From positions 1-64,000 of the forward strand of contig SHZF01000005.1 of assembly GCA_009692425.1 (NCBI GenBank): a DNA stretch of 64,000 nt, given 5' to 3'. How positions within the stretch are numbered: position 1 is the stretch's first letter; every line of letters begins with the position of its first letter. This document shows, in pieces, positions 47,398 to 52,770 of the stretch. The notes under the pieces were generated by a model. It ran no database searches. It saw nothing but the letters and a program-made list of their open reading frames with translations, and was not told the origin of the DNA. The position numbers and the translations under genes are program-made. Source of the DNA: Myxococcales bacterium. GTDB taxonomy: Bacteria > Myxococcota_A > UBA9042.

Positions 47398-49731
47398 ATG
47401 TCCACCGCCACTGCCGCCGCCCTCGCCGCTGCTCCCGTCGCCCGTCGCCGTCCGCCGGCATGGCAACCCCTCGTGCTCGTCGCCCTCGTGGCCTGTTCCC
47501 ACCTGGTCGGCGGCTGCACGGCCCTGCCCGACGACGGCGCCCCGCGCATCGAGCACGTGAGCCAGTTGGCCGACACCTTCGTCGACGTCCTGCCGTACTC
47601 CGTATGGGCGACCGTGCGCGACGGCGGCACCGGCATCGGCGCGGTGCGGCTGTATTGGGCGCGACTCGACGATGCGAGCTTCACCGCGCTCGACATGCAC
47701 GAACTCGGCGGGGGCACGTGGGAGGCCTCGATCCCGGCGCAGAAGGCTGGCACGAAGGTGCGCTACTTCGCTTGGGCGGCCAACCGATCGACGGGCGCGG
47801 CGCGGCGCGTGGCCCTGTACCCGCACCAGGCGGAGCCGCCCACGAAGTTCTTGACGTTTGCCGTGCTCAAGCCTGGCGATCTACCCGAGGGCCACCCGTA
47901 CCTGCAGCCCACTGCGGCGCAAGTGCCCGATGGCGGCGGGCGTGGACCCGACGCCGGCGCGCGCCCCGCACCCGACGTCGTAGCCGTCGATGTTGCGCCT
48001 GCCGACTCCGGCCCGCCCGACATCGACACGTTCGTGCTGCCTGCCGACGCCGACGTGACGCTCGACTCCGACAAGGACGGCGTGCCCGACGTGTTCGACA
48101 ACTGCGCGTCGCACCACAACCCGAACCAGGCCGACAAGGACAACGACGGCGTGGGCGACAAGTGCGACAAGGACAACGACGGCGACGGCATTCCCGACGA
48201 AAACGACAACTGCGACGGCATCGCCAACGCCAGCCAGGCCGACATCGACGCCGACAAGATCGGCGACGCCTGCGACAAGGATCTCGACGGCGACAAGGTC
48301 ATGAACGACAAGGACAACTGTCCGTGGGTCGGCAACACCAACCAGTCCGACGTCGATGGCGACGGGCTCGGCGACGCGTGCGACGTGCAGTCCGGCGCCG
48401 ACGGTGACCAGGACGGCGTCCAGGATGCCAAGGACAACTGCCCGGCCTCGCCGAACCCCGGCCAGCAGGACCTCGACCAGGACGGCACGGGCGATGCGTG
48501 CGATGGCGACCTCGACGGCGACGGCGTCGGCAACGGCAAGGACAACTGCCCGCAGGTCAAGAACGCCAACCAACTCGACGACGACAAGAACGGCATCGGC
48601 GATGCCTGCGACGCCGGCGACGACGACGACAAGGACGGCGTGAAGAACACCGCCGACAACTGCAAGTTCGCGCCCAACCCCGACCAGAAGGACCTGGACG
48701 GCGACAAGAAGGGCGACGTGTGCGACCCGGACCTCGACGGCGACGGCAAGGTGAATGGCTTCGACAACTGTGTGGCCGTGGTCAACGCGAATCAAAAGGA
48801 CTCCGACGGCGATGGCAAGGGCGACGCCTGCGACGACGAGAAACTGTGTGGCTCCAAGCAGCCCGCGTGCCCGGCGGGGACGGAGTGCTTCGAGCCGCTG
48901 TGCCTGTCGCCCAAGGCATGCGACGCGAGCGGCATCTGCGCGCCGGGTACGTTCTGTTACAAGGGGTTGTGCGTGCCGCCGCAGGTGGTTCCCGCGGGCT
49001 TCTGTGCGAAGGACGCGCAGTGCCCGACCGGGTTCGTGTGCCAGTTGTCGACCTGCACGCCCGAGAAGTGCAAAATCGACGCACAGTGCCCGAAGAACTT
49101 GAAGTGCGTGCTCGGTGAGTGCGTCAGCGGCCAGTTGCCCGTGAGCGGCTGCCAGTACAGCGAGCAGTGTGGCGCGAAGCAGCAGTGCCTGAACGGCATC
49201 TGCATCCCAGCGGGCTGCAAGGCCGACACGGAGTGCAAGGGCGACACGAAGTGCTGGAATGGCATCTGCATCCCCTCGCTCATCCCGACGCTGGAGTGCA
49301 AGTCAAACGCGGACTGCCCGAAAAACCTGAACATTCCTGGTCTTGGCAAGGTGACGCTCGTGTGCGCCGCGGGCACCTGCGTGCCCGACCTGCCGCAGAT
49401 TCCGGTCAAGCTGTGCACGATCGACACCGACTGCAAAGCGGGCCAGCAGTGTCTGGTTGCGGTGTGCCTGCCCAAGGGGTGCTCAACGGCGGCCGACTGC
49501 AAGCCCGAGCAGGCCTGCACGTTCGGATTCTGCACGGCCAAGAACCAGCAGGTGCCCGCGCCCGGCCAGTGCGCGACGGACAAGGACTGCAAGGACGGGG
49601 CGAGTTGCCTGGCGACGGCGTGCGTGCCGATCCCGGGCGGGCTACCTGGCGGCGGGGGCATCACGCTGTGCGGCGCTGGCGGCACGTGCCCGGCGGGAAA
49701 GAAGTGTCAGTTCAACGTGATCTGTCTGTAG
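47398..49731 (+). CDS. Thrombospondin type 3 repeat lipoprotein with Cys-rich C-terminal half
   Basis: 777 residues. Signal ends SHLVGGC. The first 180 residues hold a beta domain, possibly Ig-like ([22 protein letters not shown]). Residues about 220-480 are at least eight TSP3 repeats of the pattern DxDxDGxxDxxDNCxxxxNxxQxDxDxDGxGDxCD, calcium-binding stretches with conserved disulfides. Residues about 485-770 are Cys-rich, with units like CxxDAQCPxxxxCxxGxC. It is likely a long, calcium-stiffened surface protein or adhesin stalk. First gene of a probable three-gene run with the two that follow. Confidence 0.9.
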
Positions 49732-51941
49732 GCGCCGCGCCGCTCGACGCGCCGCTCCCCGACGAGCCGCCGTTGCGATTGCAGGAGCTCGACCTGCGCG
49801 ATGGCCTGTTCGCGGGCGCCGACCTCGCCGATGCCGATCTGAGCCACGCCACGCTCGCCGCGGCCGACCTGCGCGGTGCCGTGCTGCGCGGTGCCCGGTT
49901 GCGGCGGGCCGATCTGACCCTGGCGTTGCTCGAGGGCGCAGACTTGCGCGGCGCAGACTTGTCGGGGGCAGACCTGTCGGGCGCGGACCTGCGTGGTGCC
50001 CGGCTCGACGGCGCCGACCTGGCGGGCGCGGAACTGGCGTGGACCCGTCTGCAGGGCGCACGCGGGCTGGCGCCAGACGTGCTGCTGCAGGCTCGCCGTG
50101 GCAATCCCGCGGGCAGCGTCGATGCCACCGGGGAATCTGAGCCCATTGCCGGGGTTCAAGCGTTTCGGCGCGGGCAGGCGGCGCACGCGGCCGGACAACT
50201 GGGCGTGGCCGAACGCCACTTGAAGCTGGCCCTGCGCTGGGTGCCCGACTCCGGCGCCGCGTGGTGGGCGCTGGGCGCAGTGCAACTGGACCGCGGCGAG
50301 CCCGAGCGGGCCGCGCGCTGCTGGCGTGCGGCGCTCGCTGGGGAGCCCGATGCCGATCGCGCCCGCGTCGACCTCGCCGTGCTGGCGTTGGCGACCGGTG
50401 ACTTGGCGGGCGCGCGCCACGACCTCGCCACCCTGACCGACCGCCACCCGGACGCCCCGTGGCTCGCGCTGGCCTGCGCTGCCCTGGCGAACGAGGACGC
50501 GGCGGCGTGTGTCGCAGCGTTGCAGGTCCGCGTCGGCGACAGCCCGGCCGTGCGCTGGTTTCGCGCCGCACCCCAGCGCAGCGTGGTGCGACCCGCGCCC
50601 GTTGAGCGCGTCCGCTTTGACGATCCTGCGTGGGATGCCGCCGAACGCGCCGACCTCGAAGCCGTGCTGCAGCAGCGCCGGCAAACCGACTGGGTGTGGC
50701 ACGGCGCGATCGGCCGCGCGCTTCAGATCGGTGCGCTCGATCTCGCGTTTCGAGCCGAACAGCGCCTGCAGGCCATTGCGCCCGACCAGCGCCTGTGGGG
50801 GCTCGAACTCAAGCACCTCGACGTGACCGCGCACGCGTTCGAGGCCCTCGTGTACACCCGCGTCGGCGGACTGGGCGCGGTGCAGTCCGTGCGCTGGGTG
50901 GCGCTTGGCGCCCACGGGCCAACCGCACGCATCGAGTCGGCGACGGTCGGCGACGGTGGCCGCCATGTCACCTGGGGCAAGCGCTGGCATGGCGCGTCGC
51001 GTCCGCCCGCGAGCGTCGCGTACACCCATCGTGCCGCGCAGTGCGTGCAAGCCCTCGGTCTGCCCACCGGCTTGCCGCTGCACGACGCCGCCGGAGCCGA
51101 CGCGCTGCCGTTTGCGGGCGACCTGTTGTGCCTGTACACGGACCTGGGCGGCGTCCCCGTGGCGGAGCATGACCTTGACGTCGGCCTGGCCGAGCGCATC
51201 GGGGCGTGGCTGGGGCGGATGCACCGCGGCACGGCCCACCTCGCGCTGGGTCCGCGGCCGCGCGCCGGACTGCGCACGGGCACGCGCACGCTGCGGGCCG
51301 CCGACCCCGCCGCCGCGTGGCGCCAGGCGCTGGCGGCGGACCCGGTAAGTCTCGCGCTGTTCGATCGCCATCCGCTCGGTCCGCGCCTGCTGCCGCTGCT
51401 GCAAGCGACCGCCCGGCGGCTGCGCGGGGTGCTGCCGGGGTGCGTGCCCGGGCTGGTGCACGGCGACCTCGGGCCGGGCAACATCATCCGCCTCGACGGC
51501 GATGCCCGTTCGGGCGCGGCCGGCGGCCTGGGTGGCCTCGGCGTCGTTGATTGGGACCTGTGCGATCTCGACGTGGTCGTGTTCGATCTCGCGCGCTGTC
51601 TGGACCTGTGGACCGTGCGCTGGCCCGCCGAAGCGGGCTTGCCGGTCGAGGTGCGCGACGCGGCGTTTTGCGGGCTCGTGCGCGGCTATGCGTCGGAGCG
51701 ACCGCTGCTGCGCGCGGAACGGGCGGCCCTGCCAGTGCTCGTGGCGGCGTCGCGCGTGGACCTCGATGCCACCGTGCTGCCGATGTGTGCCGGACTCGAG
51801 CCCGAGGTGGCCGACCCGGTGCTGGCGCGCCAGTTGACGCGACTGTCCCGGGCCGCCGCCGGGGCGCCGGAACTGGCGGAGCGGCTCCGCGAGGCACTGG
51901 ATGGCGCGGCGGGGGTAGCCGTTCTGCGGTCGGGCGATTAG
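49704..51941 (+). CDS. Pentapeptide repeat-TPR-APH-like kinase fusion protein
   Basis: About 745 residues from a GTG at 49704 that overlaps the TSP3 gene by 28 nt; the rest of the long frame further upstream is a shadow of that gene. Residues about 28-118 are pentapeptide repeats of A(D/N)LxX type ([21 protein letters not shown]). Residues about 145-275 are TPR-like helices ([42 protein letters not shown]). The C-terminal region (about 400-700) ends in an aminoglycoside-phosphotransferase-type kinase core: Brenner motif [11 protein letters not shown] with H586, D588 and N593, and [10 protein letters not shown] with D616/D618 for metal. N-lobe features are weaker. Soluble and cytoplasmic. I do not know this combination in a characterised protein. 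Confidence 0.82.
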
Positions 51942-51951
51942 CATCGCGGCC

Positions 51952-52770
51952 ATGCCGACGACGGGACATCGCCGCCCAGCGACGCACACGCAGCCGCCGC
52001 CGAGGTGCGGCGTGCTTGCCCGCGTGGCCGTGCTGTGGCTGATCGGCTCCTCGTTCGGCGCCCGCGTGGCCCTTGCGGCCCCGGCTGCCGCGCCCGCAGG
52101 CGAAGTCGTGGCCGCGTCGATCTCGGCGTTTGACGACGCAGTGAACACCTTCAAGTATCAGGACTTCGACAACGCGATCCCCAAGCTCAAGGCGCTGCTC
52201 TACCCGACTACCGCGCTCGAACAGAAGGCCGAGTGGCGCGCGCGCGAGTACCTGGGTGCCGCGCTGTGGTGGCAGGGCGAGAACCGCGCCGCACTCGACG
52301 AGTTCACGGCCCTGCTCGTGCGCAACCCGCCGACGCGGCTCGACCCGGCGGTGTACCCGCCCAAGATGGTGGCCGACTTTGAGGGGCAGCGCCTCAACCT
52401 CGTGCGCCTCGGCGTCATCCAACCCGACCAGGCCCCGCGCCCACCCGACACGCCGCCCGTGCGCGTCGAGCCGCCGCCGTACGCGCTGATGTTCTTTCCG
52501 TTCGGGGTCGGCCAGTTCGCCAACCGTGAACCGGCCAAGGGTGCGGCGTTCTTGCTGGCCGAGACGGTGCTCGCCGCGGTGTCGGTCGGTTTCTACGTGC
52601 GCAACCGCGACACGGGACTGCAGACGGGCGTGCGCGACCGCACGGGCGATGTGGTCCAGTTGACCACAGGCGGGGTGTTCTGGGCGCTGGCGGGCTGGGG
52701 CATGTGGGATGCTGCGCGGGGCTGGAGCCGGCCGGCGGCCGCCGTGGGTGGGGGCGACGGATTGAAGTAG
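51952..52770 (+). CDS. TPR-containing membrane protein, third gene of the fusion-kinase run
   Basis: 272 residues, starting 10 bp after the fusion kinase. A signal peptide (LWLIGSSFGARVALAA) ends near residue 43; TPR-like helices cover about 55-145 (FKYQDFDNAIPKLKALLY, EYLGAALWWQGENRAALDEFTALLV). Next is YALMFFPFGVGQFANREPAKGAAFLLAETVLAAVSVGFYV, with a membrane helix, and a second helix (TTGGVFWALAGWGMWDAA). This FPFGxGQFxNREPxKG arrangement is found in envelope TPR proteins of delta-group bacteria. Its role is unknown; coexpression suggests work with the kinase or the lipoprotein. Confidence 0.75.
   Translation: MPTTGHRRPATHTQPPPRCGVLARVAVLWLIGSSFGARVALAAPAAAPAGEVVAASISAFDDAVNTFKYQDFDNAIPKLKALLYPTTALEQKAEWRAREYLGAALWWQGENRAALDEFTALLVRNPPTRLDPAVYPPKMVADFEGQRLNLVRLGVIQPDQAPRPPDTPPVRVEPPPYALMFFPFGVGQFANREPAKGAAFLLAETVLAAVSVGFYVRNRDTGLQTGVRDRTGDVVQLTTGGVFWALAGWGMWDAARGWSRPAAAVGGGDGLK

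Follow-up and report, generated by a model that had tools for sequence, protein, structure and literature searches.

What task falls to a kinase whose catalytic domain is preceded by two kinds of binding repeat? The question is raised by a gene in a 64,000-nucleotide stretch of a contig (SHZF01000005.1, positions 1 to 64,000; hereafter the window) from a Myxococcales bacterium, a freshwater organism related to myxobacteria, where a sequence-only reading had pointed to a fusion of pentapeptide repeats, TPR helices and an APH-like kinase. Few non-Hanks kinases of the APH fold have known protein substrates, and a conserved kinase fusion with two binding modules and a constant neighbour offers a handle for finding one. 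The fusion also bears on the role of pentapeptide beta-helices beyond gyrase protection. The features of the locus are collected in Table 1.

Table 1. Features of the kinase gene and its two neighbours in the window
Feature	Position	Strand	Evidence
Upstream lipoprotein, seven TSP3 repeats and a Cys-rich region	47398..49731	+	Pfam TSP_3 (E 5e-58), DUF7107
Pentapeptide, TPR and APH-like kinase gene, 745 aa	49704..51941	+	ORF, Pfam, relatives, structure model
Pentapeptide beta-helix, residues about 23-121, 19 units, about 5 coils	49770..50066	+	Pfam, unit count and shuffles, model
TPR array, helices 148-288	50145..50567	+	Pfam TPR_16/TPR_19; four helical hairpins in model
Second TPR-like helical block, residues 308-385, into kinase N-lobe	50625..50858	+	Model; kept in relatives
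APH/HSK2-like kinase domain, residues about 393-733	50880..51902	+	Pfam APH; profile and fold matches to 2PPQ, YtaA 2Q83, YihE 1ZYL
Putative nucleotide-binding loop, residues 401-408, LGAHGPTA	50904..50927	+	G402, H404, T407 and A408 invariant in 17/17
K426-R427, candidate N-lobe ATP lysine (beta-3)	50979..50984	+	Alignment conservation
Brenner motif HGDLGPGN, catalytic loop with H586, D588, N593	51459..51482	+	Invariant wherever covered
Metal-binding DWD, D616 and D618	51549..51557	+	Conservation; layout of YtaA D257/D259
Downstream membrane protein, helical TPR-like, C-terminal hydrophobic helices	51952..52770	+	Position, model

Domain Architecture and Structure Model

The gene is a single unbroken frame opening with GTG, in which Pfam finds Pentapeptide (E 3e-22), TPR_16/TPR_19 (E about 1e-6) and APH (E 1e-13) matches in this order from the N- to the C-terminus. 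One frame carrying pentapeptide repeats, TPRs and a kinase-like core had been read from the letters before any search, with the reservation that profiles might expose the kinase region as a false resemblance; the frame, the Pfam matches and the relatives bear out the description, and the kinase resemblance is not false. The pentapeptide repeats, earlier put at about 18, are real and number 19. They follow one another in succession with a central L or F at residues 26, 31 and so on to 116, compared with a longest run of 5 in 2000 residue shuffles, and this run and the regular beta-helix in the model assign the segment to the pentapeptide family. For the TPR array, TPR_19 scores 28.1 bits against a cut-off of 25, and the model contains tandem helical hairpins.

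An AlphaFold model built with a 14-sequence alignment supplied the full-chain prediction that had been suggested as a check, and the whole protein was predicted confidently as one piece (mean pLDDT 86.6, pTM 0.87). The beta-helix spans residues 25-120 and is regular, with about five coils and a one-residue strand every five residues (pLDDT about 90-98), and is capped by helix 124-132; the four hairpins of the TPR array are followed by a low-confidence linker (290-303), and helix 365-385 connects the second helical block to the kinase N-lobe. The other weak regions are the N-terminus, residues 133-143, the last residues and kinase loop 601-607, an insert peculiar to the window protein. This model supports a rigid multi-domain chain in which the TPR helices connect with the N-lobe of the kinase.

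Distribution and Selection

The GTDB family of the window is represented by 22 genomes from 10 genera and is the only family of its order in the collection. Kinase relatives with the same domain order, about 50% identical, occur in 19 of the 22 genomes, and two of the three without one are incomplete assemblies (G010, 84%; G018, 67%). The fusion nearly always lies in a single frame, the exceptions being fragments at contig ends (G008, G011, G020) and a C-terminal frame break (G005). The remaining families of the class yielded no comparable match, and neither did 379 genomes sampled from the phylum, in which the best matches outside the family (E 1e-22 or weaker) cover part of the kinase only. 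Named relatives are metagenome assemblies of Myxococcales or Deltaproteobacteria, several with lake names, and the search for plasmid-borne relatives found none. The fusion is thus a genuine, conserved and lineage-restricted architecture, new as a combination of known components, and it may have been described earlier elsewhere.

In the close pairs L004/L005, L011/L012 and L008/L010, the pentapeptide, TPR and kinase parts each have a dN/dS of 0.10-0.17, and most nucleotide changes fall at third codon positions of the plus frame; all three parts are under purifying selection in these pairs. The possibility that the fusion is an artefact, either a chance kinase resemblance or a frame error that runs separate genes together, is refuted and retains practically no probability: the worry that a frameshift had united domains which are split in close relatives can be dismissed because the same architecture occurs in those relatives, almost always in one frame, and the APH match, the fold match given below and the codon-position and dN/dS patterns, which fit the plus frame, all speak against it. 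Nothing favours an artefact beyond the regional high G+C, which leaves an antisense frame of 815 codons (49707-52154, minus strand) open across the kinase gene; we interpret this frame as a shadow cast by the high G+C of the plus frame.

Active Site and Affinities of the Kinase

The kinase region scores 51.8 bits against the APH/CAK superfamily profile (PF01636; cut-off 23.2) and carries the HxDxxxxN loop, a metal-binding Asp and, with K426 in the window protein, the N-lobe Lys (or Arg) for the ATP phosphates. The catalytic and metal-binding residues stand exactly where the sequence-only reading had named them; H586, D588, N593 and D616 are invariant in the window protein and the 14 relatives covering them, and D618 is Asp in the relatives apart from a single Glu. 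K426 is replaced only in genus g4, whose three aligned members have Gln; R427 is invariant throughout, and the putative nucleotide-binding loop sits between strands 393-402 and 405-413. The DxD of YtaA (D257/D259) has a layout matched by the window protein, and the window family resembles YtaA in keeping the N-lobe Lys and in having no conserved Glu in the following helix; choline kinase (ChoK) carries Arg at the position of the N-lobe Lys, a common substitution in the superfamily (PMC2860764). Judged by these residues, the kinase core of the window protein is intact and the protein is probably catalytically active.

Sequence profiles rank homoserine kinase 2 first (HSK2, E 2.5e-14), followed by YtaA (1e-7) and YihE (8e-5), and the NCBIfam models ranked highest are homoserine kinase, CotS and SrkA, with the window protein far below their cut-offs (39.8 bits vs 271 and 17.3 vs 255.9 for homoserine kinase 2 equivalogs). 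A Foldseek comparison with the PDB recovers the two-lobed kinase fold, with homoserine kinase 2PPQ at the top (E 4e-11, TM 0.74 over the target), followed by YtaA 2Q83, N-acetylhexosamine kinase, amicoumacin kinase, choline kinase and YihE. These matches would place the domain in the CAK branch, near homoserine kinase 2, the bacterial spore kinases and YihE/SrkA. Resistance APH family models match neither the window protein nor its kinase domain and give weak matches in single relatives alone (E 0.008 or worse), in agreement with the earlier view that this is not an antibiotic-resistance enzyme; the Hanks-type Pkinase is absent from the Pfam matches of the window protein at E 0.1.

Each of the known systems resembles the window protein in part. 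Homoserine kinase 2 (ThrB2, 2PPQ) shares the fold and the motifs but is a single-domain metabolic enzyme, whereas the window protein adds the pentapeptide and TPR parts. The spore kinases YtaA/CotI and CotS share the DxD, the HGDxxxxN loop and the absence of a conserved alpha-C Glu, but they are coat proteins of endospore formers and have neither repeat. YihE/SrkA belongs to the same branch of the superfamily but is single-domain and matches weakly in sequence; its members are annotated as Ser/Thr protein kinases (PMC13411936). In cyanobacteria, pentapeptide repeats are joined to Hanks-type rather than APH-like kinases, including SpkB, and TPR-kinase fusions also occur (PMC2176072; PMC2877116); there the two repeat types are reported in separate proteins, whereas the window protein has both. 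In Myxococcota, four proteins of about 720 aa (L064, L065, L067, L076) carry TPRs directly before a related APH-like kinase, without pentapeptides, and constitute a second multi-domain APH-like family. The kinase tree recovers this TPR-APH clade (support 100/99) and the clade of the full fusion (91/96); with values of 73/54, the tree does not distinguish a close from a distant relation of the two or a single TPR-APH origin from several, and descent of the window family directly from these paralogues was rejected on this account.

That the enzyme instead phosphorylates a small molecule, such as a homoserine-, aminosugar- or choline-like substrate, with the repeats serving assembly or localisation only, is a real if doubtful possibility. 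The best match in both sequence and fold is a homoserine kinase, with N-acetylhexosamine 1-kinase and choline kinase next; the NCBIfam homoserine kinase model matches all 15 kinase domains (15/15), and among the enzymes with a similar fold are several that use small molecules as substrates (homoserine, N-acetylhexosamine, choline, amicoumacin). This reading is weakened by scores far under the homoserine-kinase cut-offs, by the lack of pathway genes among those near neighbours that could be identified, and by the two protein-binding modules in front of the domain, which would be unusual for a metabolic kinase.

Two further roles were considered and rejected. A DNA-mimic or gyrase-directed role of the pentapeptide part finds little to recommend it, given scores far under the family cut-offs (MfpA, 35.3 bits vs 360; Qnr, 21 vs 240), about five coils and a net charge of -4 to -10. 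Anti-phage defence was set aside after PADLOC matched neither the protein nor the products of the two flanking genes.

Gene Neighbourhood

The stop codon of the lipoprotein gene (49731) overlaps the GTG start of the kinase gene by 28 nt, and 10 nt separate the kinase gene from the membrane gene; from this spacing, the three genes would form a single transcription unit. A scan of the locus for sigma-70-type promoters, confined to that pattern, pointed neither way. In all relatives with a locus long enough to include it (13/13), the lipoprotein gene lies directly upstream of the kinase, as it does at three more g4 loci. Its product has as best NCBIfam match the myxobacterial cohesion protein MtsC, below the cut-off (240 vs 350 bits). 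The genes era, der and recN precede the lipoprotein gene in several relatives and share its strand; in the window they are found downstream and on the other strand.

The kinase had earlier been described as standing between a surface lipoprotein and a membrane TPR gene, and these positions hold in the window, but the membrane gene is not a constant partner. It adjoins the kinase in many relatives and lies elsewhere in others that keep the lipoprotein and the kinase (e.g., G013, G015, G019). Its product has no Pfam match, and the model (pLDDT 66.8) is confident solely in the helical part 50-160. The gene occurs in 48/52 genomes of the class. Six genomes from other families have it next to the gene for a GAF/sigma-54 activator, which contains an FHA-like domain; on the stretches read, neither the kinase nor the lipoprotein gene was detected at these six loci (L097-L102), where the membrane gene and the activator form a class-wide adjacent pair. 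This pair is older and exists without the kinase, and the lipoprotein is therefore the better partner candidate and the membrane gene the weaker one.

The FHA-like domain of the activator (Pfam E 3e-8) is degenerate. Canonical phospho-Thr binding in FHA domains goes with the pattern GR, SRxH and NGT; here GTD/GSD replaces GR, and SRxH and NGT are absent. Because these residues are lacking, no phospho-reader is at hand, and phospho-signalling through the activator, whose gene lies on another contig in the window genome, was rejected.

Proposed Function

With about an even chance of being correct, our preferred explanation sees the protein as a scaffold-tethered kinase of the CAK branch that acts in the cytosol, would most likely have a protein as its partner and may serve the making or regulation of the lipoprotein. 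The sequence-only reading had proposed a scaffolded, partner-directed phosphotransferase; the results bear this out in part, in that the fusion and the intact kinase core are supported, whereas direction by a partner is a conjecture. In the model, the five-coil beta-helix, the TPR superhelix and the two-lobed kinase are predicted as a single confident chain. ATP and Mg would be held between the lobes by loop 401-408, K426, N593 and D616/D618, and D588 would assist in passing the gamma-phosphate on to a hydroxyl group, by analogy with the solved relatives. The TPR groove and the beta-helix may bind the partner and might either hold the substrate or place the kinase. A protein is a more likely substrate than a drug, and a role in making or regulating the TSP3 lipoprotein, an envelope protein, is suggested by the conserved association of the two genes. 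By eye, the kinase protein has no obvious signal peptide, whereas the lipoprotein is exported, so that a direct encounter would need the unexported precursor. A narrower version of this proposal, namely a family-specific non-Hanks (HSK2-like) protein kinase with a pentapeptide/TPR docking rod that controls the surface thrombospondin-repeat lipoprotein in freshwater Myxococcota, is unlikely.

Possible Loss of Function in Genus g4

In genus g4, the N-lobe Lys K426 is Gln in 3/3 aligned members, the kinase frame is interrupted near its C-terminal end in genome G005, and genome G006 lacks the kinase gene, its lipoprotein and membrane genes adjoining with no detectable remnant between them. Taken together, these observations suggest that kinase function is dispensable in g4. 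Inactivity of the kinase in this genus is only possible, because the aligned members keep an intact catalytic loop and the same Lys is Arg in choline kinase.

The same substitution, frame break and gene loss lend some colour to a reading of the protein as an adaptor or pseudokinase, whose fold binds ATP or partners while catalysis is not its main role, at least in g4; SrkA of Pseudomonas aeruginosa likewise shows phenotypes independent of kinase function (PMC13411936). We regard this reading as improbable, since H586, D588, N593 and D616 are invariant, g4 included, and the Lys position tolerates Arg elsewhere in the superfamily (PMC2860764). Relaxed selection in g4, suggested by a dN/dS of 0.47, was dropped, as a distant pair elsewhere gives a similar value through saturation.

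G006, in which the kinase gene alone is missing, provides a natural comparison. At this locus (L090, G006:C103), the lipoprotein stop codon and the aligned region of the membrane gene lie within about 270 nt of each other.
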